Source: Odontesthes bonariensis (lineage: Eukaryota; Chordata; Actinopteri; Atheriniformes; Atherinopsidae). From it: a DNA stretch of 64,000 nt. Shown here piece by piece: positions 273-58,088 of the stretch. The notes below the pieces were generated by a model. The model saw only the letters and a list, made by a program, of their open reading frames with translations. It was not told the origin of the DNA and searched no databases. Within the stretch, counting starts at the first letter, position 1, and each line of letters opens with the position of its first letter. The stretch is from contig NC_134506.1 of the NCBI RefSeq assembly GCF_027942865.1, forward strand, positions 15,336,436 to 15,400,435, in the 5' to 3' direction. A program made the position numbers and the translations under genes.

Positions 273-3200
273 GACCTTTGCTATGGCAGTGTCTGGGGCC
301 AGCGCACACTGGTAGGGGAAGACAGGGGAAAGGCCACTGCTGAACACATGAATGCACTCACGTAACTGCTGGTGGAATCCAATGAACTGCTTTTATGAGT
401 TAAAAAAAGCATTTGGTTGATTGATTTTTTTACAAGATAAAAAGGAAAGCAACATTCGTGACTTTCATGACTGCTGAATTCTTTGTCATGCTGGCTGTTG
501 GGTATTCCCTGTCCCCATCTGGGAGTTTGAATAATTTACAGGTGTAAGAGTGAGTCTGTGAAGGAGGAGCAGGTCTGAGTAAGTGCACACCGTCTGTGCC
601 TACGTACACCTCCACATCTAGCTGGGGCCTATACACGCTGATGATCCAGTAATCATGTTTAGTGCTGGAAAAAGAATCCATTAAAAACCAGGAACTGCAC
701 TGACGGGTAGATATAACTGAAGACTAAACTGTCAGGAAAGGTATCAGTTCAACCTTTAAATGAAAAACTCTTACCGAGTAAGGCTTTGGATGGTGATTTT
801 AATACACTGAGTTGTGGTGACACTGCATTTGTTTTCTCTTCACTGAGGCTTCTTTTTGGTATGAGAGAAAACAGCCTTGTCCAGATTCCTGAGTTTAGGA
901 ATCCACTTCAGGCACATTTGACAAACAAACTGTCTGTCACAGTCACCAAACTCTGTCAGAGGATTTAGAAAACTGGTGCAAAACTGAACTATTTAAATAT
1001 CAGAAATTGAGCGAGCCTGTTTGACAGAAATCTGCAGTCTACAGCTTTTGATATATAATCTGCATTCTTCACTTTCCAACAGAAAGTGAGCATTATGTGG
1101 TCGACTTGACAAGTTAAACATCCAGTAGGCAGCACATAATAACACTCATTAAAAAAGGTAGAGCTGAAACTGGAAATGCTTTAGTGCTTTGATAACAGAC
1201 ACAATCTTACCTATGCAGTTTGGTTCCTTTTACATAGAGATGCAGAACAGTGAAAACCTTTCAGCATTTTGTTTTGCTTTTTTCTGGGAGTATCGTTACA
1301 AAAAGACGTCAAGTCTCAGTAAATGGGTCAGAGATGGCATCAATACACTGGTTTACACCATGCTTGGAGTGTAAAATGGGCAAGGAATGAATAAACAGGT
1401 CAAGTGTGAATATGGTTACGACTGGATGCAGAGCCACAGGCACAATGATATGAATTATTCTGTTATTTGATAGGATATCTCCATTAGTCACTCTGCCAGT
1501 GGAATTTTTATACGGTCAGAAGTAGGTTAAAAAGTTTCCCTCTTTTCCAGAGGCAAAATACAAACCTGTAAACATTCTTCTACCAGCTGCAGAACTGATA
1601 AAATTCCACAACAAGCTTTCCCAGTGTAAAAGTCAACAGAGCACATCAGTTACTTAAAATCCTAATTTTATTAGTGGGATACTTATAACATGCCATCCTT
1701 GGCCTAATGTGTTCAGAAGATTTTAAGGAATGTTCATTTTGTCCACTCAAAAGAACTATACTGACAAAAGCTGCTTTATTCACTTGTCAAATATCCACAG
1801 TGCATTTGGTAGTAGACGACTGAGTGAGAGTGCTCATCTTTCTCTCACCTGCTCTGCAACAACACAAGGCACGATTGGCTTTTCAGTGGGAGAGAATAAC
1901 AAAAGAACATCTTCTCAGTTATAGAAAGAAAACAAGAAAATTCTCCATCAGATCAGTAAAATGTATTGATATAAAAATCAGAGAAAAAAAAAAGATTTTG
2001 AGACAGCCTAACAAAATTCATATCTGAACATAAAATTGTGATCACTTCAATTTTAATGAAACCTGTTCATGTCAGATGAATGAAATGAAGATGCTCCATG
2101 ATTCTTATACTTGAGGCCCGACAGAGAGACAACTCCTTTATTAGTAAGAGCAATGATTTGTTGGTGAAAATGAGTGATCAAGAGGAGGAGAGCTCTGTGG
2201 GTTCATTACTACATCCCCACCTGGGCTTTCACTGCATTAAGTATTCTGTTTTACTAATGATGTCAGGAGGTCAAAAGAGAGCAGGTTTGCCCCCAGACGC
2301 TGCGTGCAATAACCTGGACCTCCAAGATTCCTGCTGAATGTTGAAGAAATTAGTGGAACAATGACAACTCTGCATTATGCCTTCATCTTCCTCTCCTGAC
2401 ATTTACAAAAAGAACATACCGTTTCAGTTTAATGATGACTTCAAGTTAACGTGTTTATTATTAGCATCATTTACGCCACAGGGGTTCTTATAAGACACCG
2501 CTTCTTTATTACGTTATATGGTGCAGAAAAACAGGAGGATGAAAATAAAAAGGAGTTTGTTTTGTTTTGCAGCACAATCATATTTCGAATAGGGCCGAGG
2601 TCAGAGCTTTGGGAGACAATCCCCTCCACTTCTGTCAAAGTTTCATCTGTCAAGCTGATGGTTTTAGGTTAAACTCAAGAATGCTGGACAAGACCCTTTT
2701 TATTATTCCATCCCTTGTGTGTAATTTACAACTAGCAAAATAACCGCCCCAATGCATGAACCCTCACTTTACATCTAGAAACAAACTCAACTCACATGTT
2801 TGGCCCTGATTTACTAAGATGTGCAATTTTGTGCCTGATCGCAAATCACAACTTGCGTTGACAGCAGTGTGTTTTGTGGGTGATCTTCTAAAACAGCACG
2901 AATCCACCAGCACAGGTATAATCATCTTCTTTCTATAATGACCAAAGCATTTAAACAGGAGCAACACAAAGCAAATTACAGACCAGGGCCTTCGTTTCAT
3001 CTGTCCATAAAAATAGTAAACAAAGGGGGCCTCGGGGTATCCGAGGCCCCCTGAAACTGACACGAGACCCCCCGAAAACATGATTTGGGAAATGTTGGGG
3101 GGGGTCTCTAAAATATTGGCAAAATGTGATTTCCCCTGATGAGTTATGATTGCAGACGCGATGCATGTGTGGAGCCTGTGTGCGTAATTGGCATAAAGCT

Positions 3201-5299
3201 GTGCTGGCCGCGTATGATTTTGTATATAGGCTTTTCATGTGTTTGAGTCAAGCGCAAGCAAGCAACGCCCCCCCCCCCCCCCCCCATCCCCAAGAAAAAA
3301 AAAATGGGACCCCCCGAAAATCTCGGCATAGTTCGAACACTGGGTGGGACAACTGTAAGAATAAAGAAGTTGCTTCTGCAAAAAATTTATTTTTGCTGTA
3401 ATCATCCCCCACTTTGGCTCTTGCCGTCCTTTTGCATTCTGTCAAGCAGAGTAGGGCGCCAATTTCCTTGTTACGATCAAACAATACTGACCACCTAGTC
3501 ATCCAAATAGCTCCTTGGGCCTTGGTTTTCTTTTCATTGATCCTCACAAGAAAATATGCACTCCACCCAACCTGGCAGAATCCAAAAAGAGGGGTGGGGC
3601 CATTAAGAGAAATTGGCATTGGGTTTAAGAATAAGCTGTTTGAAAATTGAATCTCAGAAAGAACAAATCAGATTTTGACTCAACGTAATTCAGCATTTTA
3701 TTAGGCTTTTCAAATTGATCAGGATCCCAACAATCACAGGCGCACAGACCGAGAAGTTTTGGCTTGGATATTATTCACATTCTTGGTGGTTGCACAAGAA
3801 GCCAAGAAAAACTGGAACAGTCATTATGCTACAGCGGATGGGTATCTACAGTGGGAGTTGGGGTTAATCAACAAAATTATTACTGGATATTCCTCAGTTT
3901 AATTCACATTCAACACAGAAATGGGAATCTCTTAAAATAAATCTCTTATGTAATTTTTTTATTCTGTCACTTACTGAAATACATCTATACGTGCTTTCGC
4001 TGCAATCACCAACAGTGACCTTCATAATTAACGCCAGTTTTTTGGCATCATACAGTGTCCAATGTTATACAGGCAGCAGGCCAGTTTCACACCACCAATC
4101 CCAGCAGGCCCCCATCCACCATACTGAGGTGGGATGAAGAGCCCAACTTAATCTGAGAGATCCAAGGAAAAGGAAGTGAGGAAGTCTCCGCAGAAACACA
4201 GCGTGACAGCAGATGGCCTCTTTGGCTTAAACCATCTGGTGAGGAGACGTCCAGTCCACCGTCAGCCTGTCCCCTTTCATTTTACATGCCATTCTTTGAC
4301 AGCAAGACCCGTTTCTACTCCTCTGTTCGACACATCAACAACGTTTCTCTCCAAACCAGAGACAGACAGAACACACACGCACTGATTAGGCTTAAAGTCT
4401 ACTCGGCTACCAGGGCAGCCAAGAGACCCACTTCCATGTCACAGAGCCTAATCAATGAGTGTTAAGCCTTTAGATGTCATTCTCTGGACAGCCAGGAGAT
4501 TATCATCTATCCCTGTGTTAGGACTGCTCCCAGCAAGGCTTACTTTAAATAGCGTGCATATGCTGATTGTATTGCTGGCAGAATGACTGCTTATTCCTGT
4601 AAAAGGGCTTTAGGCAATCTGAGCTTTATTTTAGAGTAATTTCAGAGATGCAGCACTCTAAAGTGCAAAACTGTACTTAAAATCCCAATCATTATCCCTT
4701 TCTTTCCAACTGTTACAATCCGAATGTTCCCATCTTCTTAAATTTCACTCACTTTGGATAACGTAGACTTGGTTTCTTGAGATTGCTGCATAAATTCCAT
4801 TGTATTGTGGACCAATACACACACCGAGATCTCAATAACTAATGCAGAAATAATACGATCAATAACTATAGTTTCAAGGTCAAGAGAGTAATGATAGATT
4901 AGAACATCAAAGATTCATAGTTAAAAAAGGGACAAGAGAGGATTGACATGGTGGGTGTTAACATATGCGAGTGCGCTGCGTGACTTATAATTAACTCATT
5001 ATTATATACAACCAAAACAAACAAACAGATGATCTACAGTTCCCATATCCAGCACACACACATAAACACACAAAAAACAACGCACTTAACGGCAATGTCT
5101 GGTCATTTAGGGCAAATCGTTACTCTTTATAATGAGAATGGAACCTATTGCACAATTAAGCACACATATGTGGTCAAGTTGAGTTGCAGACTGAAAACAC
5201 ATCTGCAATTATAATATCGTATCATTTTCAAGAAGAAAAAGAAATGCCCAGAAATTGTTTAAGCTTCGTGGCACCGATGATTTTCCTGGTGTCTTTTTC

Positions 5300-23888: not shown

Positions 23889-28913
<5,025 letters not shown>

Positions 28914-29070
28914 AACGACACACTACAATGTTGTTACTCCCTTTCCACAAAAAGGGGCCAAAACAACAATAATAACAACAACAAAAACGGTAGTAAGACA
29001 CGACAGTGTATTTGCCTTTACGAATGCGCCGCTATTTATTTACGTGGTATCCATCCCGTAGGAGGCCATT
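28914..29070 (-). promoter_or_regulatory. btbd1 5' UTR and promoter region
   Basis: The stretch directly upstream of the btbd1 start contains several CG dinucleotides (28987-29060) and is followed by AT-rich repeat DNA. No TATA box was identified. The transcription start is inferred to lie here. Confidence 0.45.
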
Positions 29071-32248: not shown

Positions 32249-33073
32249 CTAAAAAAACTTTTTTGCTATCAAATATGCAATGCCGGTGACAACGGCATAT
32301 TCAGCTACTTTAGACATACTGAACTGCCACCAACTTCTGGTCTGAGGTTTACCTGTTGAGGCATCGGTAGAAGTCTGGGGCATCTGATCTTGGTCTGCTT
32401 GTCTTGAATTATTCAACTCCTTCTGAGGAAGTATTTCCCTGCTCTGTTTGGTTATCAGCTCATCTTTAGCCTGAATTTCTTTTTGGGCTTCCTCCAATTG
32501 GTCCTGAAGATTTTCCTTATCAGTCATCAAATATTTATTTTTTTCATTTTTCTTGGCCAGCTCTTCAGTGAGAATCTGGATTTTCTCCTTCAAAACGTCC
32601 TCATTGTGATACCGAGCCTTTTCTGTTTCCAGCTTCTGTTCAAGAAGACTCAGTTCACCTCTGTCCTTCAGGTTCTGCTCTGTTAAATAATGCTCTCTCT
32701 CCTGCATATTCATTCTAATTTTGGCCATGTTGTCTGAGAGGTCTTGTCGATAACTTTTCTTCCAAATCTCAGGATAGCTCTCTATTTCCAGCTTCTGTTC
32801 AAGAAGACTCAGTTCAGCTCTGTCCTTCAGGTTCTGCTCTGTTAAATAATGCTCTCTCTCCTGCATATCCATTCTAATTTTGGCCATGTTTTTGGCAATG
32901 TTGTCTAAGAGGTCTTGTCGATAAATTCTCTTCCAAATCTCAGGATTGCTCTCTGTTTGTATCCGCTGCTCCATCTCCTCTTCTCTGGTGTGCTCTGACT
33001 TGACAGAAGCCTCCTCAGTAAACTGATTACTGTATCCTGTATCCAATATCAGGTGGCTGATGTCGCCTTCCAT
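32249..33073 (-). CDS. unrecognised single-exon coiled-coil protein with C-terminal membrane anchor
   Basis: I do not recognise this gene. It encodes 274 residues without an intron. Residues 1-43 are acidic. Residues 44-100 and 101-153 are two nearly identical repeats (each with PEIWK, YRQDL, MAKIRM, QEREHYLTEQNLKDR and ELSLLEQKLE). Residues 154-225 continue as a charged coiled coil. The end (SWWQFSMSKVAEYAVVTGIA then YLIAKKFF) is a short hydrophobic segment before lysines and the C terminus, as in tail-anchored proteins of ER or mitochondrial outer membrane. The start at 33073 lies about 52 bp downstream of a TATA-like box and 100 bp downstream of a CRE. The repeat offset of 159 bp with near-identical DNA points to a recent internal duplication. 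Coding is likely because the frame is long and the substitutions between repeats mostly keep residue type. Confidence 0.7.
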   Translation of the reverse strand: MEGDISHLILDTGYSNQFTEEASVKSEHTREEEMEQRIQTESNPEIWKRIYRQDLLDNIAKNMAKIRMDMQEREHYLTEQNLKDRAELSLLEQKLEIESYPEIWKKSYRQDLSDNMAKIRMNMQEREHYLTEQNLKDRGELSLLEQKLETEKARYHNEDVLKEKIQILTEELAKKNEKNKYLMTDKENLQDQLEEAQKEIQAKDELITKQSREILPQKELNNSRQADQDQMPQTSTDASTGKPQTRSWWQFSMSKVAEYAVVTGIAYLIAKKFF

Positions 33074-33094
33074 GCTTTCAGGTCCTAAAAGAAA

Positions 33095-33185
33095 TTGTTA
33101 AGTCGATTAATAAAACTGCCCTTATAAACTTCAACGACTGTGACATCATGCCTTTGTACAATCTTTGTGACGTCACTGTTTTCGT
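33095..33185 (-). promoter_or_regulatory. CRE and TATA-type promoter of the coiled-coil gene
   Basis: On the minus strand, a perfect cAMP response element TGACGTCA (33168-33175) is followed by TTATAA (33122-33127). A leader of roughly 20 bases then precedes the ATG at 33073. A second CRE half site (ACGTCA) lies near 33236. The alternative is that a 5' exon exists and the ATTTCTTTTAG before 33086 is a splice acceptor. Confidence 0.5.
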
Positions 33186-34560: not shown

Positions 34561-34930
34561 TGTTTTTAACCTGGATTTAAAAAATGTCTACATTTGGTGA
34601 AAGTTTAATCTCCACTGGCAGTCTGTTCCACTTGTTTGCAGCATAACAGCTAAATGCTGCTTCTCCATGTTTAGTCTGGACTCTGGACTGGACCAGCTGA
34701 CCTGAGTCCTTGGATCTAAGAGCTCTGCTGGCTTTATATTCTCTGAACATGTCACAGATTGTAAACCATCAGCAGGCTTTTAAAATCTATTCTGTGACTG
34801 GCTGGAAGCCAGAGTAAAGATTTTAAAACTGCTGTGATGTGTTCAGATCTCTTAGTCCGGGTTAAAACTCCAGCAGCAGCGTTCTGGATGAGCTGCAGAT
34901 GTTTAATGCTCCTTTTGGGGGACTCAACGA
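34560..34930. repeat. common teleost interspersed repeat
   Basis: Contains GCAGTCTGTTCCACTTGTTTG, a segment on ctgagtccttggatctaagagctctg and AGCAGCGTTCTGGATGAGCTG. This is a widespread fish repeat whose family I cannot name with certainty. A diverged relative lies at about 13090-13440. Confidence 0.5.
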
Positions 34931-35149
34931 AGAAAAGACTTCAGCCTGAAAAGTTGTCCACAAGACAAAATGTATAAAATATGAAGTATACTATTAAAGG
35001 GACAATATGTAATTTCTACCCCCATCTAGTGGTGCAAATTTATTTTGCAAGGTCGAATGAATTTGCTCTCTAGCGCCTCGCGTTTTCAAATGTGCGTTAC
35101 AACTTCTTCAACTACGGCAAGCGGTATGTGTCAAGATTCAAGACACAGG

Positions 35150-35698
35150 GGCTGTGTTCGAAACCGCCTACTACATACTACATACTTGAAAACGGCATAC
35201 TCATCTATCTGACAGTATGCAGAGCGTTTACACACAGTGCACTTCACTTCTGCCCGAGCCGACATCAGCCGGCCTGAAAAGCTGATTTCGCTTAAGCTAT
35301 AAACTCTGTAAATATATAACTTTAGCAACATTTGAAACATTTTCAGGCGAGAAAGTAGTCATTTAGACCCCCAAGGTGTTGAAAATCTGACAAAATACCG
35401 GCTATTTACAATTTTGTTCCCACGAATTCGCCGCTAGTAAAGCTAGCCGCTGTGAGCAACGCACTTCCGGTTTCGCCGTTTTGACTGCTCTCGTCCCGTT
35501 AACTGAATTTGACCGTTCAAATGGCGATGGACGACGTCACGTTACGTTGCATCTTGGGTAGTTTGAGTGTGACAAGTAACCTCATGATGAATACTCAACA
35601 TTTCGGCGAATCTAGTATGCATCTAGTGTACATCCGGGAACTTAAAAAAGTATGACTAGTAGGAATAGTAGGAAAAGTAGGCGGTTTCGAACACAGCC
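35150..35698. mobile_element. nested MITE with 3-bp target duplication
   Basis: A 549-bp element starts GGCTGTGTTCGAAACCGCCT and ends with its inverse. It is flanked by AGG on both sides (35147-35149 and 35699-35701). Subterminal parts are rich in ACTACATACT-like repeats. A 3-bp duplication with GGCTGTG-type ends suggests PIF/Harbinger, though that family usually prefers TWA. It inserted into the left non-coding part of the Kolobok element and so is younger than it. Confidence 0.75.
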
Positions 35699-35822
35699 AG
35701 GGTGAGCAGCAACACGCGCAGCCGTGTTACGACGACCCCGCCCACTTCGAGGAGGCACGAACTGTAATGGAAACACAACCAAACCAAGCTGTGGCGAGCC
35801 GTGTAGAGCGCCATTTAATAAC

Positions 35823-36906
35823 ATGTCTTCAAACTCCAGCTCAGCAAGTTTTGTTTCGGGGGATGAGGTACGTTATGTCATACAAACTTCAAACTGCATT
35901 GAATCATTAGTGTGAGCATGTATGAGTAATTACTCCTCGAGCAAGATAGTGAATTATGTTCTCATGTTTATATTGTTTTTTATTGGTAACATTGCTGTCA
36001 CAGTATAGCGAACGTAGTAGGCTAGTGCTTGCTCTACAACGCATGAACTATGTGCTACAACTAATTAGTAAGGAAACATTCTTTATTTTCGATGTCTGTG
36101 CATTGTCAGAGATCATCATCAGGCGATTCAACGCCGCTAGGGAGAGGAAGAGGGAGAGGACAGAGAGGCAGTGGATCGGTGGGAGCTAGGCGAGGAGGAG
36201 GACGACGTGGAAGAGGAGGAGAACGAGAGTCTCAAACACCACGGCAAAGACGCTCGGCAGCGGCAAGAGAAGATGCTGATAGGGTTGAAGGTTTTCAAAG
36301 GCAGAGAAGAGAAGTCACTGAGGTTTGTACAATTTATATGGCTAATAATAATAATATATATATAATAAAAATGCCAATGATTCCTAACATTATACTTCCT
36401 ATAACGCCCGAGGCATTAGCGACCAATCGCGCTTTTTTCTAGACCAAAATCTTACTTCTTTTCGTTTCACCTTTCATTTCTAGAGGCTTCTGCAGGAGAT
36501 GAGCCTGGAAGATCACAGACGCCTCGCATTGGGAATGCTGGAGAGGCAGCCGGGTCTGATCTTTGATCTGTTGGTGGAGCGTCAGCAAAGACATGGTGCT
36601 CCTATATCTGCGGAGGTACCCGGGGTACCTTGGTGTACCTGTGGCAACTGCAGAGACAGAGAGCGGAAATGCTGTGGCCAAGACCCTGTCCACTGTGTGA
36701 GCCTCCTGTCCCATTTCACGCAGTACTGCCTGGATGAGGGTTACCTGCGAATCCATAGGGAGTACCGGGAAGACCTCACTGCCTTTGGAAATTTAAGGGA
36801 GCCCGGCGATGACAACAGAGAATATAGGCATGCAGCTTATAGACATTTTATTTTCTGGCAGCATGGCCCATTGGGACAGGGGAACCGGAGAGTGATTCCC
36901 AGCTGA
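35823..36906 (+). CDS. transposon-borne P2X7 'ballast' domain protein
   Basis: Three exons, 35823-35867, 36110-36322 and 36484-36906, joined by GT-AG introns, give 226 residues. Residues 1-15 are Ser-rich (MSSNSSSASFVSGDE). Residues 16-86 are Arg/Gly-rich (LGRGRGRGQRGSG, RRGGGRRGRGG), like a nucleic-acid-binding tail. The last exon carries PWCTCGNCRDRERKCCG, an HCVSL segment and YRHFIFWQHGPLGQGNRRV then IPS. This cysteine pattern matches the zinc-binding ballast domain of the P2X7 receptor C-terminus (PVWCQCGSCL, CC, AYRCYATWRFG, ILPSCCRWRIR in human). A TGA stop falls at the first cysteine after IPS; the same frame continues with CVCKIRDTFPDP and QYTGY to TAA at 36976, matching the end of the domain. 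Role in the element is unknown. A polyadenylation signal follows at 37066. Confidence 0.8.
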
Positions 36907-37251
36907 TGTGTGTGCAAAATTAGGGATACATTTCCTGACCCTCAGGCACAATACACAGGCTACATTCCAGGGATCTAATATTTGCCCAAGTAGTTTTGTA
37001 AATAGTTGTAGTGAACAGTTATATTTATATATTTTGTATTCTTTTGAGTTCTGTTTGTTACAAATAATAAAATATTTGTTATTTGAATATGCTGTATTTG
37101 TTCTATAATAGGGATTGAGAAAAATGGCTAACCCTAAATAGCAATTTGATGAACAATATGATTGAAATGAATGTTTTCTTTTCTTTTAAAACAATATTCA
37201 TTTATTCATATTTACAAACATTTTGATATACCAGCAACACAAAATAACAGA

Positions 37252-38321
37252 TCAATCTTCCTCCAAGTTGGTGGCAGCATCGAGGGCTGATCCTGTAAAA
37301 GACATGGGGGGCCATTAGTCACGTGCACACAATGAATTATCATTAACATGCATATGCACACAATTCAGTATCAGAGGCAATGGCCTGTGCTGAAATAACG
37401 GCATGTAAATGCTTGTCACTTACCTAGACCTCGGCTGACGTGTGCGTACCAACTCTGACATCGGTGGTGGCGGTATTGGGGGGACAACACCAAGCTGCCT
37501 TGGGTCATCCGGGCGTAGGGTCCTCTTTCGTGGCATCCCAACCCCGCTTGCGACTCTTCCTTTCACAATCCGCGCTTGCAACTCAGGGATGTAGTCGTAA
37601 GATTTCTCCAACTTCAAGGCGTAGAGGCTATATCGTCTGGCATTCTTATTGTACTTCTTCCTAAGACTAAATAAAAAAGGCAAGTATTATATGTAATGAC
37701 AAATAAACTTGCATAATTGTTAGACAATATGAATGCAATAATGGGAATACAACAGAAATTTAGAAGCGTTTGACATACACTTGTTGGCCCTCAGCCGTCC
37801 TGTAAGTTGGTCGTTTGTGGTGGAAATTGTAGTCCAGGGCTGCGAGCAAAACTCTTGATTCATACCCTTGGGGAGTGAAGGCTTGGCGCTTGCTAGCATA
37901 CATCAGAATGTGATTCTGAAATGACTCGAGGTGGGCTGTTGATCTGGATGATTAAAAATAAAATTAGAGCAAGAAACACAAACCTACACATTTGTTATGA
38001 CTGACATTTCTGCTTAATGTCATGTGCCCACACTTTACCTGAAGCGCAGATACTTGTGGACATCCTTCTGCCAGCGCTTGTTGAGGACAATGTTCACTAG
38101 CGCTTTGTGGCTCTGGGAATCCCTCTCAATCCACTGCTTTCTTTGTGTGTCTTCAAGGTGATCATGTTGGCAGCTTCCAGTCCCCCAGGTGTGATTGTTG
38201 CACAAATGATGTAGAACCCCAATCCAAAGTGCCTAAGGAAAGTAAACCAAATAAACACAAAATAAAAATGATCATGTCACAGGTATTTAAAATCATGGAA
38301 CTTAAATAAATTATCATTAAT

Positions 38322-38362
<41 letters not shown>

Positions 38363-41300
38363 TTATCTTGCTTACCAGAAAATGCTGAAATGTATCTGCT
38401 GTCTTGCAGCACCACCAGAAATGGTTGACTACATCCCTCAACCAGTGAACGAGAATAGACTGGCCTTTCAACTTTCCTGCCTTGAGGGGATAAACAAAAA
38501 ACAAACAATGCAAGTTATTCCATGCATGTATTTTTGCATTGAGACCTAACATAATGCAATGATTCAAGTGACATGCAGGGTAGTGTTATGATTGAAATTG
38601 TAAGTATTCAAACTTACAGCAGCTATTTTTTTTTGGACAGATTTTTAGCACCATGCCATATGTCCAGGCTGTGGTGAATCCTGAGCTCTTTGTATCTGCC
38701 TTTGTCTGGGTCTGTGAAGTAAGGAATCATTTTATTTCCAGATGTCTCAATCATTCTTTCAATATTTGTTTACAAACATTTAACTGTTGACCACTTACTC
38801 AAAAGGGCTCCAATCTGGATATGGGCATCTGTACAGATCTCCACTACCATTATCTCTTTGGTTAGTTTTTCTACAGTCTGGATAAAACCTTCCTTTTCCA
38901 TGATATTGGAGTTCCAGTTTGTCTGCCGCTTGTCTATAGTGGCCACATAGACAATGTCTTTGCTATTAAGCTCCATGGTGGTGTAGCTGCAGTATTGTGC
39001 AGAATGCCCTGGTGAGTCATTTCTGCCACCTAGAAAAATAAGGCAATTTCAAAATACAACACATGTATGGCAGATGCTTGCTAAATCGGTTTCATTATGT
39101 AACACAATACAAATGTATGTAAAACAAGGTAAAGTATAAAAACACACACCCAAGAGCACAACATCTTTCCCTTGAAGTCGGTCGATGGCCTCAGACCTCT
39201 TCTCTTCCCAGTACTCTTTAATAGAGTCAACGCAGTACGTGTCCTGGATTGTGTAGTGGGTGGTTGGGTTAACCATTCGGATGTTCATGAATTTCAGAAG
39301 GAGAGCTACTTTAGTGTAGTTGCTTCCAGACAGCAAGATGTTGGTTGAAAGTAAAAAGTCACCGGCCTGCATGCCAAACTTCAACACAGGCTGGGAGTTC
39401 CACCGCCATAAGCAATGTCCATTGGGGCAGATCTAATGGTGAAAAAGAGTAGCCTTATAAATTCACAATGCATATCCAATACTGTCTGTTACCATTCATT
39501 GTGATTTGAAGTTACTGTCAAGGCTTACCCATTCAACGCTCATTGCAGTGCCCCTGATGGCGATGACTGTTGGAAAGGGAGCAATGCTGTCACACACCAA
39601 ACCGTTCCTCAAGACACCAATGCATGTGTCCACGGGCAGAGTTAAAAATGTGACCAGCTGCCTCAAGCTGTTCTCATAGATGAGTGCTGCTTTGACGCCA
39701 ACAACATCATCCTCACTAAGGACCTTCTGAGGGCCTGGCAAAATTGGCTGCTCAAAAGTTAAGGGCTCATCAGAAAGGATTTCAGGGGCAGGCAGGTCGT
39801 GCACAGTCTCATTGAGCCCGATAGTTGGCAGACTGTCTATTACCTGCGCTCCCTTCAGTGCACCACCCATTCTGGAAAGGCATAACATCAGGGATCATAC
39901 ACAGTTCAACCAAATAATTTCAATAACTGTTCGGCATATAGCAACGAACCAAACGCCTGTGTCAACAAGAATAGAAACATTTCAAAGTAGTCCTGAACAT
40001 TGTTTATATGTAAAAACATGGAAACAAAGTAAAGAGAATACTAAAGAGAAATAGATTTCAACTCACCGCAAAGAAATTGGTGGAAGATATTCCTCGTCAG
40101 AGCTGTCGTCCGGGTCATTGTGGAATGTGGGCTCATCTTCTGCCCAATCAATCCTTTCGGGTACAACATACTCAGTACATAGAAATGTCATGAATGAAGC
40201 CTACACAATTCAATAGAAATCAATAACAGAATAGAAGCCCACTTACACACTGTTCATGTGGTCATTGAAGGCATTTTCATCCAGCTCCTCTTCCCCAATG
40301 CTCATCTCATGCAGGCTAGAAGGAGAATAAATAATATTTAAAAACATGTATCAGATGAAAATAGACAATAAAACACACAAAATAGATTTTTTAAATTTTT
40401 TTAAATGAAGGTTTATGGGTTACCTCTTCTCAAGAGTTTCAATTTCCGGTGCATCTGCTATTGCGCTTAGATGTTCATCTCTGAAAACAATAAACATAAC
40501 ACACTATGAGTTACCGGTAGATACAGGTTATATATGAAACTCGTACTCAAACAAACAATGACAAAATTATTATCCATGTGATTACTTGCCTATATGTCCC
40601 ACTGGAAATACTGGAGAATATCAAAGCAGCTGGCACTTCAGACCGGTTTGGCTTCATGGGGGTTGAGGTGTTCTGAATCCCAAGAGATCTCTCATAACTG
40701 GACAAATTAGATGGACAAATCATATCAGGTTTATTGCCCAAGCATTCTTACAGACAAGGAACTTGACTCCAGCAGTTATGGACTCTCCAACATGAAGACA
40801 AATAACATATAAATACAGATACTATAAATACAGATGACAGATAACATATCAGATAACATAAGTTATTATACACACACAGCAGTGTGAAGTTGCTATCTGG
40901 AAAGAGTTCTTTTAAATAAACTCCAGGTAAACTTTATAATATCTCGTTTTGTGAGTTAAGAGCCTATGTGTACTACGGCAGAAGTACACATACACACAAA
41001 TATCTTATCTATTTATGGTCAGACTATGTGCATACAATGTGTAATTAACACAAGTGTAGTGCAATATGGGCAATAACTCAACCATAGTGCTATAACTTAT
41101 TTTATTTAACTCTTTACTTTGTATATCTTATACAGCCTATATTCTTTTTTTACAATTTGTTTTAGATTATTCTATAATAATTATATATTATATTAATTAT
41201 TCTATATCATACTGTATTTTAGATTTAGAGAGATCCTATGTGTGTGTTTGGAGCTACTGCGGACTTGAATTTCCCTGAGGGAGTCATCCCAAGGGATAAA

Positions 41301-42031
41301 TAAAGTTGAGTCATGGGGCAAATAAACATGAAATATTTACGTTTTTATTTTAAAAAATAAATATGGACTTCGTCTGTAGTGTGATAATTAGCTTACTACT
41401 TTGATGTTTATAATAACCTAAACGCTTGAGAATTAAGCAAGTTATGTCTTGAATGTTTGAATGTTTCACCATAAACACAATGTTTTCGGCGAGAGAGCTG
41501 CCTGTGCTAAGATGGCGGCCATCTGCGGATGTTCCACTCCATTGACCAGCAACGCGGACGAGACATCTAGCCATTCTATACATATCTATGGCGTTGACCA
41601 TTGCTAAAAATGCTTCTGATGGGGTATTTGGCTGGATGTCATGGTGGAAATTACGCTAGGTCATCGCTTTAGCGGGACCGGGTTGAAGTGATGTATACAC
41701 ATTATTTTGCTAGGAGTTAGCTCCATGGCATGCATAAGACCATCATTTACCACCGTCTAGTTTTCCAAAGAAAAGTACTGATGCAATGAGAAAAGCTTGT
41801 CATTTAGTCAGTGAAATTTACTTACCTGTCGAGAAGAAAGCAGGCAACCTCAGCGTCCCTTTGAAAATCTTTCTCCTTCATTAGCTCTTTCCATCTGGTA
41901 AAAGCGACCCCAATGTTTACCCTTTTTTTTCTGGATTTGCTGGTCACGTTGACTTTTCAATTCTCTTTTTCTTTTTTTTTTTGCGACGAAGATCCCTTCT
42001 CCTGTGGCGCGGCATAACTGTGGTCTTCCAT
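37252..42031 (-). CDS. Kolobok-type transposase gene, about 14 exons, frameshifted
   Basis: Minus-strand exons, 5' to 3': about 42031-41826, 40697-40590 (GC donor), 40480-40424, 40315-40247, 40170-40067, 39871-39529, 39432-39150, 39029-38799, 38711-38618, 38480-38376, 38232-38039, 37943-37779, 37666-37424, 37292-37252. Exon 1 contains VNIGVAFTRWKELM and DAEVACFLLD. The core shows CPNGHCLWRW (zinc-ligand-like), GRNDSPGHSAQYCSYTTME, DKRQTNWNS, EICTDAHIQIGALL, HHSLDIWHGAKNL, CNNHTWGTGSCQHDH and YNFHHKRPTYRT. The aspartates in NDSPGH, TDAH and LDIWHGAKN are the likely RNase H-fold acidic residues, by inference. The exon at 38618-38711 has nine A where eight keep frame through NLSKKIAA, giving a stop. 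The first exon also changes frame around A runs near 41930-41985, so its start is uncertain. Related proteins occur across fish and invertebrates, usually unnamed. Confidence 0.75.
40720..41310 (+). mobile_element. LINE 3' end inserted in transposase intron 1
   Basis: Starts near TTATTGCCCAAGCATTCTTA and ends GGGATAAATAAAGTTGAGTC. Both are typical of the 3' untranslated end of fish non-LTR retrotransposons. No coding part is left. It lengthens the transposase intron between 40698 and 41825. Confidence 0.5.
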
Positions 42032-42379
42032 AGTAGAGAATGTCGAATGGCTAGACTGAATCTGTTTAAACCTGCGCGCAAACGTGACTTCAAATTACGT
42101 CATTTCCGCCTGCAGACCTCGCGTTGGGGAAAACGCGATTCGAAGTGCTTTATGTCCCTCTAGGCACTTTGTCGTTTTTCATAGACCGGAAGAATATGGC
42201 GGCCTACATAGAGCTTACCCGCTCTATGTAGATACAGACAAGTTATTCTTCACTCAAGAGGATAATTGTGATTTTTGACAGAGATCATTTTACACCAATG
42301 AGGACTAATTTATGAATGAATATGTTGAATTTAGCTAATAAATGACTCAATATATTACATAGTGTCCCTTTAATTTAAG

Positions 42380-43070
42380 ATGGCTCTGTCAGAAGTCAGC
42401 CATGGTGCCTGAGAAGTTTAAGCAATGAACCTGTATTTAATTTGGCCAAAGGTCATTTCTATCCGTGCCCTTGTTTTAGCATGTGCATGTGCATGTGCAT
42501 GCCCTTGTTCCTGGATCAGGATATGGCGTGAAGAGGTACGGCCAGCATGCATACCCTCTGTTCCCAAGCAGGACACCATTGAACTCTCCTGCAGAATAAG
42601 AGAAATGTTGAATAGATAAACATGTGTTAAGACTTGGCAATTTGATGCAATATGTGCCTTATATGGCTATCTATAATAAAGTATGACGAGCACTTTAAAT
42701 TCCTTAAGATGACCTCTACACCTGACCTCTCATTGATTACCAAAATTCTGCTACACCTTACTTCAAAAGTACACTCCTTCGAGTAAGTAAAATTGTCGCG
42801 CCTTGTGCAAACCTCTGTGCCAGTGAGGATGCTCGGAAGATCCTAGAATCATGAACTGATCCCGGCCATTTAGCCTCAATGTTGGAAATGAAATTACCTC
42901 CATCACAGATCATCTGTATGCACGGAGGATAGGAGTCAATGATGAGCTTTCACAGGGCATAAATGTAACATTGCTCAGCATTACTCAAAGGGGTTGATGT
43001 GGTATTTTTCAAAATGAGAAATCCAGTTCAGAGTCTATGGACAATTATCCCCAAGTGTACCTGTACATTT
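42380..43070. other. gene-free stretch
   Basis: Intergenic DNA right of the Kolobok element, with a short GCATGT tandem (42479-42500) and no recognised exon. Confidence 0.3.
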
Positions 43071-55900: not shown

Positions 55901-58088
55901 GATTATGACATGGATGCTTGTTTGGAGCACAGCGAGGAGGAGCTGCAGGAGTCCTTCCTCGAGTTCTACGACGATGTTCTGCCGGAGTTCAAAAATGTTG
56001 GCAGGGTGCTGCAGTTCAAGGTGAGATGAAATCGGGGAGCTCTCTGAAGGTCACTGATTTCTGTCATCTTGTCTTCACATACAGTATGTGAGACGTACTG
56101 TACCAGATACCTTGGTATCCGCAGGGTTTCCCACACAAATACATTTAGCAACCGGCTTGCATATTTTGCATTTTTACTCTCCAGGTAATGAAATCTACGG
56201 CAGCAGAGTTGCATGCAGACGATGTCGCATGCAGACACCGGCGTCTCCCCTCCTATTACAAAAATACTAGATCAGTACACCATCTTGTCGGTTTACGTTT
56301 TCCCCAAAATGATTAGGCGACTTCAACACTTTTTGGACAGTTAACATGTTTTTTAGAAATATTTGATCGAGTATTGTAGCTTCTGTTGTAATGTAAACAT
56401 CAGTAAATTGCTCCCACCTTCACACTGTCACAATTATAAACAGATTCTGTGGGAAATGCTGTTCTCTGATCCGAATAATAAAACTAAAAACTTTGCTCAA
56501 CTGAATTCCTCGAGCACGTACACACGTTCTCATTTGGCTTCACACATACTCGTCGAGGCTTTTTGAACCGTCTTTTCCCTCGGTAGCTAAGTAAAACCAT
56601 GAAGGCGCGACAGAATAATCTTAATGAGGTGAAAAACGGGTTAATCACCAGATCTGTGTTGATGCCAGGAACAACACTTTCCATGTAAAAGAGGCTTCAA
56701 ACGTAAAAGCATTTGCTGGATGAAACAATTTTGGGTTTCACCGATAACCTTCTGTTCTTAGGTCTGCTGCAATTACGAACCACACCTGAGGGGAAACGTT
56801 TACATTCAGTTTGAGACGTAAGCCAGTCTTTCAGTCCCTCCGTGCCTTTTCACACATTTGCAAGTCGTTTAAAGGGAAAAGATTTTCATGCATTATTTAA
56901 TTGTTGTTCCTTCTGTCTCCCGGTTGCACGTCCAGGGAGGAGCAGTGCAAAGAGGCCCTCATCAAGTTCAATGGGAGGTGGTACGCAGGCCGGCAGCTAC
57001 ACTGTGAGATATGTCCCGTTACGCGGTGGAAGAATGCAATATGTGGTGAGTTAACGTTTCATGTTAGAACGAAGGGGACACTATTTGTGCTCGGAAACAT
57101 TATTGCAAAGAGACAATAATATTTGCTTATTCAGTTTTTGTCTGTTTACAATCTTGCTGGCTTTGGTTTTTCACCTTTAGGACTGTTTGACAGAAGAAAG
57201 TGCCCCAAAGGGAAACACTGTAACTTCCTGCATGTATTTCGAAACCCTGGAAATGAATTCTGGGAGGCCGACAGGGATTTGTGTCTCTCCCCTGATCGCA
57301 GCGTCAGGGGGAGTCGTAGAGAGGGGTGGCATTCAGAACGGTACAGAGACCGATCGTGGAGGCAGCGTCGCTACAGCAGAAGCCCAGAGAGGAGATCAGA
57401 GCGGTCTCACAGCAGCCGAGAGGAGAAGAGAAGGAGAAGCCAGAGCAGAGACAGGAGGGACTCCCACCAGCATAGAGGAGACAGTCGGTCGTCCAGATCC
57501 CGATACAGCGACAGCCGGACGGACGGACGCCGAAGCAGAAGTAAAGAAAGATCGAGGAGCAGAAGTAGAGATGTAGCGCAACACAGGCTGAGAATCGGAA
57601 GTAGAGATAAAGACTGGGAGCATAAAAATAGGAACAGAAGTGAAGAAAGAGACGATACAGATGAGGACACTCGCAGAGAAGGGAGAGAGAAGTCCAGAAG
57701 CACGAGTAGAGAGAAAAGAATGAAGCACAGTAGAGAAAAAAGCCCCAAGAAGTCAGATAAAAGTAAGAAAATGTCTACTGACGATACGAACACACACCGA
57801 CGCCACAAACACTCCAAAAAGAGCAAGAAGAGCAAGAAGAAACATAAGAAGAAAAGCCACGTGCCTGATGTGACAACTTCATCTGGAGAGTCAGAAAAGG
57901 AGAAAGAGTCGGAGGAAGAGCCTGTGGATCGTCCCTCGACACAAAGTCCCAGAGAAGACTTGAAAAATACTGAGATGACTCAGGAAAAATGTGTAGAGAA
58001 TGATTTAAGTCCAGAGGTGAAAAGAGAACAGGCCAATGTCGAAATCACTGGTGAGCTGACTGGAAACGGCGAAACGGACTTATCTTAG
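52950..58088 (+). CDS. zrsr2: U2AF35-related splicing factor ZRSR2 (U11/U12 3' splice site)
   Basis: Eleven coding exons: 52950-52993, 53181-53260, 53363-53444, 54164-54272, 54892-54978, 55413-55451, 55564-55694, 55807-56020, 56762-56817, 56936-57045 and 57181-58088. They give 619 residues. Residues 15-147 are a charged Lys/Arg/Glu helix (SHKQRRAALRKDRRKRKR; KEEWESQQRREKEEKEQ). Zinc finger 1 (about 177-196) reads CPFFLKTGACRFGERCSRKH. The U2AF-homology RRM follows (about 205-310; LPEFKNVGRVLQFKVCCNYE; FNGRWYAGRQLHCEICPVTR). Zinc finger 2 (about 318-334) has CPKGKHCNFLH. The tail (350-619) is RS-rich, then Lys-rich (KHSKKSKKSKKKHKKK), then acidic. ZRSR2 recognises the 3' splice site of U12-type introns in the minor spliceosome. 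The exon 1 donor is the weak AAG|GTCGGT; the split Ser codon (AG+C) then matches the family. AATAAA signals lie at about 58393 and 58418. Confidence 0.95.

Follow-up and report, generated by a model that had tools for sequence, protein, structure and literature searches.

The transposon and its genes

The 64-kb window (the whole stretch of DNA that was analysed) contains a 7,372-bp Kolobok-type DNA transposon with inverted ends and TTAA on either side (Table 1). Both ends have the sequence AGGGACA(A/C)TATGTAAT and are inverted relative to each other, and this end pattern occurs twice in the window against 0.02 occurrences expected. TTAA is the insertion target of Kolobok transposases in the account given in the main-text parts of Kojima and Bao 2022 (PMC9587614), and the location of the ballast gene between Kolobok-type ends, as had been predicted, is borne out by the TTAA sites that bound the inverted ends. 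The element carries two genes that form a convergent pair, KolX near the left end on the plus strand and a DDE transposase on the minus strand, and five sibling copies elsewhere in the genome carry these two genes as well. A small nested element (35150..35698) with perfect 23-base inverted ends lies inside the Kolobok copy and outside both genes. A search of positions 34900-42500 for RNA families gave one sub-threshold Rfam match, to an unrelated microRNA family (it scores 23.8 bits where the cut-off is 79).

Table 1. Features of the Kolobok-type element in the window
Feature	Position	Strand	Basis or remark
TTAA target-site duplication, left	34994..34997	.	abuts inverted end
Kolobok-type DNA transposon, AGGGACA...TGTCCCT ends	34998..42369	.	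inverted ends; five sibling copies elsewhere in genome
Terminal inverted repeat, left, AGGGACAATATGTAAT	34998..35013	+	inverted-end search
KolX exon 1, start codon, 15 codons	35823..35867	+	by eye; GTACGT directly after
KolX exon 2, RG-rich, best 40 residues contain 26 R/G	36110..36322	+	in 420 control windows 12 is the 95% level and 19 the maximum
Ballast-domain exon (KolX exon 3), interrupted by a TGA at 36904-36906	36484..36978	+	PF20478 4.7e-13; P2X7 chains 2.5e-6
AATAAA, possible poly(A) signal downstream of KolX exon 3	37066..37071	+	by eye
DDE transposase gene, ~13 exon blocks, frameshifted	37420..41990	-	5' limit approximate
Terminal inverted repeat, right, AGGGACACTATGTAAT	42354..42369	-	inverted-end search
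TTAA target-site duplication, right	42370..42373	.	abuts inverted end

The transposase frameshift is at a homopolymer run in the exon block at 38618-38713. In an alignment of the transposases of 13 loci the motifs DSP, CTDA, WHG and LESF are invariant (catalytic residues were assigned by eye), and DxWH is present in five of the six rows inspected; the sixth, L016, has NxWH, with N for the D of DxxH (L-numbers denote ballast loci and C-numbers contigs of the assembly searched below). Exon 11 includes a Cys/His-rich stretch, a candidate for the zinc finger that Kolobok transposases have between C/DxxH and the last E. A Pfam search with a 315-residue stretch of the transposase gave no match, and the assignment to Kolobok is based on the ends, the motifs and KolX. 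Kol0 is distinguished by KolX as a second protein, and at 31 of 41 loci (below) the transposase has a ballast gene as its neighbour. Judged from its sequence, the window element is very probably a KolX-bearing Kolobok.

KolX of the window copy

KolX is similar to the ballast domain of the P2X7 receptor (main-text parts of PMC9587614). The KolX exons of the window have GT/AG sites and phase-0 joins (their limits were placed by eye from splice signals), and this exon model gives a protein of 226 residues that ends ahead of the final part of the ballast. The original prediction had read the last exon as a P2X7-type ballast with its characteristic motifs, preceded by an RG-rich part and lacking any ion-channel part, and had proposed a search with the profile of the P2X7 C-terminal family. 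That search was positive: positions 36484-36903 match Pfam P2RX7_C (PF20478) with 49.9 bits (curated cut-off 23.5), and solved P2X7 chains are matched as well (Table 1). The RG-rich part is exon 2, whose R/G count exceeds the control maximum, and none of the 51 genome matches to the P2X channel (PF00864) is on C1, the contig of the window, in agreement with the missing channel part.

The motifs WCTCGNC, KCC, AYRHFIFW and IRDTFP are present in the ballast exon, so the motif claim holds for these, but not for IPSCC: an in-frame TGA sits at its first cysteine and gives IPS-stop-C, and so replaces one of eight otherwise invariant ballast cysteines. The exon is also 12 bases short by comparison with the five sibling copies. 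The window copy cannot itself make an intact ballast. In the sibling L009, whose exon is open, the matches are 5.5e-27 (95.4 bits) to PF20478 and 1.8e-16 to solved P2X7 chains. There is next to no probability that the TGA encodes selenocysteine in an unbroken gene; it does fall precisely on the first cysteine of IPSCC, but the absence of any SECIS-type match in 34900-42500 (Rfam) and the open frame that five close siblings keep at this site make that reading unlikely, and the transposase of the same copy is frameshifted as well.

Ballast loci and transposase across the genome

The assembly to which the window belongs (945 Mb, 187 contigs) yielded at least 44 ballast matches, which became 41 loci after three split pairs were merged by eye, and at least 60 and at least 39 matches to transposase exons 7 and 12, respectively. 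The original prediction was that ballast-only genes elsewhere would lie beside this transposase, and they do: within 30 kb of the ballast we found exon 7 at 25 and exon 12 at 31 of the 41 loci (31 for the two combined), and all 31 pairs are convergent. The nearest transposase exon is at most 1.3 kb away at 28 of these paired loci and at most 10.3 kb away at 30. In 2000 trials of random uniform placement the paired loci averaged 0.25 and never exceeded 3; this control ignores clustering of transposons, which would not, on the other hand, explain a single orientation. Conversely, of the 39 exon-12 matches 31 have a ballast locus no more than 30 kb away. Ballast-only host genes such as nanor have been described in fish (cited passages of Rump 2020, PMC7016195), and a host gene of this kind might merely happen to stand beside an unrelated inserted element, a reading to which we give almost no weight: the pairing of 31 of 41 loci in one orientation, together with the presence of both genes in five sibling copies at other sites, refutes it for this genome.

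Ten of the 41 loci have neither transposase exon 7 nor exon 12 within 30 kb. One of them, L027, retains transposase exon 13; at L014, L018 and L020 tblastn found no transposase exon in 10-kb stretches; and L029, L030, L034, L035 and L036 were sampled as 2-kb stretches. The remaining one, L038, is the host P2X7 gene, in which the ballast exon (C7:6162409) follows P2X channel matches on the same strand (C7:6145210-6152247) and the nearest transposase exon is 6.97 Mb off. When the 51 P2X channel matches were compared with the ballast loci by eye, L038 was the only locus with any of them nearby.

The window and 20 further stretches were inspected for element ends, and TTAA on both sides with matched terminal repeats was found at 14 of these 21 loci, where matched means at most two differences over the 10 bases after TTAAAG, so that other types of ends would be missed. 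The seven loci with no matched end pair by this measure are L013, L014, L016, L019, L020, L027 and L028. When left and right ends were swapped between families, 18 of 314 pairings matched. The 14 bounded elements sit in 14 different flanks, and all of them have AG...CT ends, although AG was demanded by the search and only the window element was found independently of it.

Among the exon-7 matches are 21 with at most 36% identity (C14:36981719 to C6:1011454), several of them in long open frames. None of these distant relatives partners a ballast locus within 30 kb, and they may represent other Kolobok lineages without KolX. A search for relatives in viral contigs gave 13 pattern-matching stretches, none of which encodes one.

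Conserved features of KolX

Sixteen of the 41 ballast loci, including host P2X7, were chosen for open frames and variety and aligned. Invariant positions (L009 numbering) include W50, C51, C53, C56, C67, C68, C75, A122, Y123 and R124, and also W129, P143, S144, C145, C146, I150 and R151; eight cysteines are common to all 16 sequences. KolX is in this respect like the P2X7 ballast (PF20478), with which it shares the zinc-motif cysteines, AYR, W, PSCC and IR, whereas it differs from the receptor in having no channel part, in carrying an RG-rich part in its place and in being borne by a transposon. R546 and R578 are described as widely conserved GDP-site residues of the P2X7 ballast (cited passages of PMC7016195); R578 aligns with the invariant R151, and the position of R546 is R in 14 of the 16 sequences.

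An RG-rich stretch upstream of the ballast exon exceeds the control maximum (19 R/G per 40 residues) at 21 of the 41 loci and the 95% level of the control (12; 420 windows) at 32, values in which near-identical copies are counted repeatedly and for which some loci offered less upstream sequence (2 to 2.6 kb). No stretch above the 95% level was found at nine loci (L014, L018, L020, L031, L033, L035, L038, L040 and L045); at host P2X7 (L038) the best upstream count is 7. Ten RG tracts that were inspected use mixed Arg and Gly codons and have some short repeats.

At all 16 loci inspected an in-frame TAG or CAG immediately precedes the ballast exon and would, if used, provide a phase-0 acceptor. 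In host P2X7 two in-frame CAGs that follow pyrimidine-rich stretches are candidate acceptors.

A foldback element with a ballast exon

Locus L018 (G000:C17:5400997-5410996, 2286-4292) is an element of 1,999 bp between TTAA sites; its foldback arms are identical in 368 of 384 aligned columns. Its ballast exon is open (168 aa) and there is no intact transposase; the arms contain a frame-broken remnant that by eye resembles the first transposase block. A genome search with the left part of this element, in which 40 of 151 candidates were scored, gave at least 55 matches. L020 has a decayed ballast exon similar to that of L018, and a match to the arm lies 1 kb away from it.

Age, constraint and joint divergence

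Average differences among the six copies of the window family (the window and L009-L013) amount to 0-1.3% for the transposase blocks and to 0.6% for exons 2 and 3 of KolX, a low divergence which suggests that the family has moved recently. The left end of L013 is unlike those of the other copies in the family.

Nine KolX representatives compared between families have pS values of 0.58-0.92 and pN values of 0.17-0.42, and the 5 of 36 pairs that allowed an estimate of dN/dS gave 0.14-0.24. The ballast is constrained between families, with synonymous sites that are mostly saturated. Within families the larger sets gave no sign of selection on the ballast (pN/pS 0.83 for three copies and 1.07 for seven), the 10 pooled pairs of the window family have 20 nonsynonymous and 0 synonymous differences, and two pairs of within-family copies gave pN/pS of 0.50 and 0.43. 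Constraint between families and laxity within them would fit a KolX that is needed while the element multiplies and decays after insertion.

Ballast distances follow those of transposase exon 7, with a Mantel r of 0.95 over 24 loci (L019, the 25th locus with exon 7, is omitted; 0 of 10000 permutations as high) and of 0.69 over eight family representatives (44 of 10000 as high). Since ballast and transposase diverge together, recent capture of the ballast by the element, which the original prediction had offered as an alternative, is disfavoured.

Relation to published Kolobok and ballast proteins

A literature search for work that links the P2X7 ballast or KolX with transposons returned PMC9587614 alone. 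In its main-text parts Kojima and Bao propose that P2X7 originated when a P2X4-like gene fused with KolX, and regard nanor as a domesticated KolX. The central idea of the original prediction is in our view right, but the route from transposon cargo to receptor is not new, having been published in 2022. Stand-alone ballast domains in fish and invertebrates, to which the original prediction referred, are described in the cited passages of Rump 2020 (PMC7016195); the word stem 'transpos' is absent from the main text of that paper.

Compared with the Kol0 Kolobok described in the main-text parts of PMC9587614, our elements agree in having a DDE transposase with KolX, an apparent ballast fold, a TTAA target and 5'-RR/YY-3' ends. 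Here each is treated as an individual genomic copy, host P2X7 serving for contrast, and those parts were not found to mention an RG-rich exon, a ballast exon in phase 0 or a foldback derivative ('arginine', 'RG-rich' and 'glycine' are absent from the main text, supplements apart). Our additions are a census of individual copies, an RG-rich tract that is widespread, a ballast encoded by one phase-0 exon, and a foldback element that carries this exon with no intact transposase. To nanor and other ballast-only proteins in the cited passages of PMC7016195 KolX is similar in joining a ballast to a short extra N-terminal part; those proteins are described there as host genes, whereas the KolX gene is part of a transposon and neighbours its transposase.

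Function of KolX and origin of the P2X7 tail

The account that we favour, and as a whole consider likely, is that the window element is a recent, broken copy of a Kol0 Kolobok with a transposase and a KolX helper, and that the ballast exon of such elements became the tail of P2X7. The architecture, the genome-wide linkage, the joint divergence and the between-family constraint on the ballast are its observed part. KolX probably helps the element, since it is constrained between families and mostly linked to the transposase. Its most likely role, to which we give about an even chance, is that of a nucleic-acid-binding helper of transposition, an idea from the original prediction that gains from how widespread the RG-rich tract is. 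The RG-rich part would bind nucleic acid, RNA or DNA, and the zinc ballast, possibly itself guanine-nucleotide-binding, would assemble or regulate the transposition complex. The main rival, which we think rather unlikely, is that KolX counters host silencing or regulates expression of the element and plays no part in cut-and-paste itself. An RG-rich protein could bind RNA, and the constraint between families leaves the function unspecified; the linkage to the transposase, however, fits a helper role equally.

As for the direction of transfer, we hold with some confidence that the ballast passed from transposon to receptor. The reverse, capture of the last exon of host P2X7 by the element, is very improbable. 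In its favour, the ballast is a single exon in both and P2X7 is present in this genome, but KolX and the transposase co-diverge across the eight family representatives, the KolX copies are far closer to one another than to P2X7 (which is 31% identical to L009, with pN of 0.44-0.51), and a ballast without a P2X part occurs in sponges, cnidarians and other animals (cited passages of PMC7016195). A tree of P2X7 and KolX gave a P2X7 branch length of 2.77 under a midpoint root, and because of this very long branch and this rooting its placement of P2X7 is unusable.

Transfer from transposon to receptor could have occurred as follows: a ballast exon with its phase-0 acceptor and its own stop would have been spliced onto a P2X4-like gene, and a single insertion in the sense orientation would deliver the acceptor, the domain, the stop and the nearby AATAAA. 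We tentatively suggest, as a possibility somewhat short of an even chance, that the ballast is a mobile, ready-made 3' terminal exon between TTAA ends, at L018 even with no intact transposase beside it, and that P2X7 was made in one step, by landing in sense in or behind a P2X4-like gene. If so, the same exon trap may have produced other chimaeras, and the P2X7 ballast would be a repurposed transposition factor that formerly stood behind an RG-rich, probably nucleic-acid-binding arm. The receptor papers, in the parts cited, call the role of the zinc and GDP sites of the P2X7 ballast unknown or not established. Should the ballast descend from a transposon protein, it may first have served to bind nucleic acid or to assemble a complex, and in KolX one would have a soluble form of it. 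To these questions the present analysis brings a test made on individual copies within a single genome, for which host P2X7 is the contrast, and a concrete route for exon capture.

Other open frames in the window

Three further open frames were noted. The one at 28491-28922 (minus strand) has a BTB domain (Pfam PF00651, 4.6e-14) and presumably resembles a BTBD3/BTBD6-type gene. The frame at 32249-33097 (minus strand; 282 aa) looks like a coiled coil, contains an internal duplication, is hydrophobic at its C-terminus and has no Pfam match at 0.01. The frame at 57120-58088 (plus strand; 322 aa), likewise with no Pfam match at 0.01, is serine/arginine-rich, and we take it to resemble a U2AF-related splicing factor.
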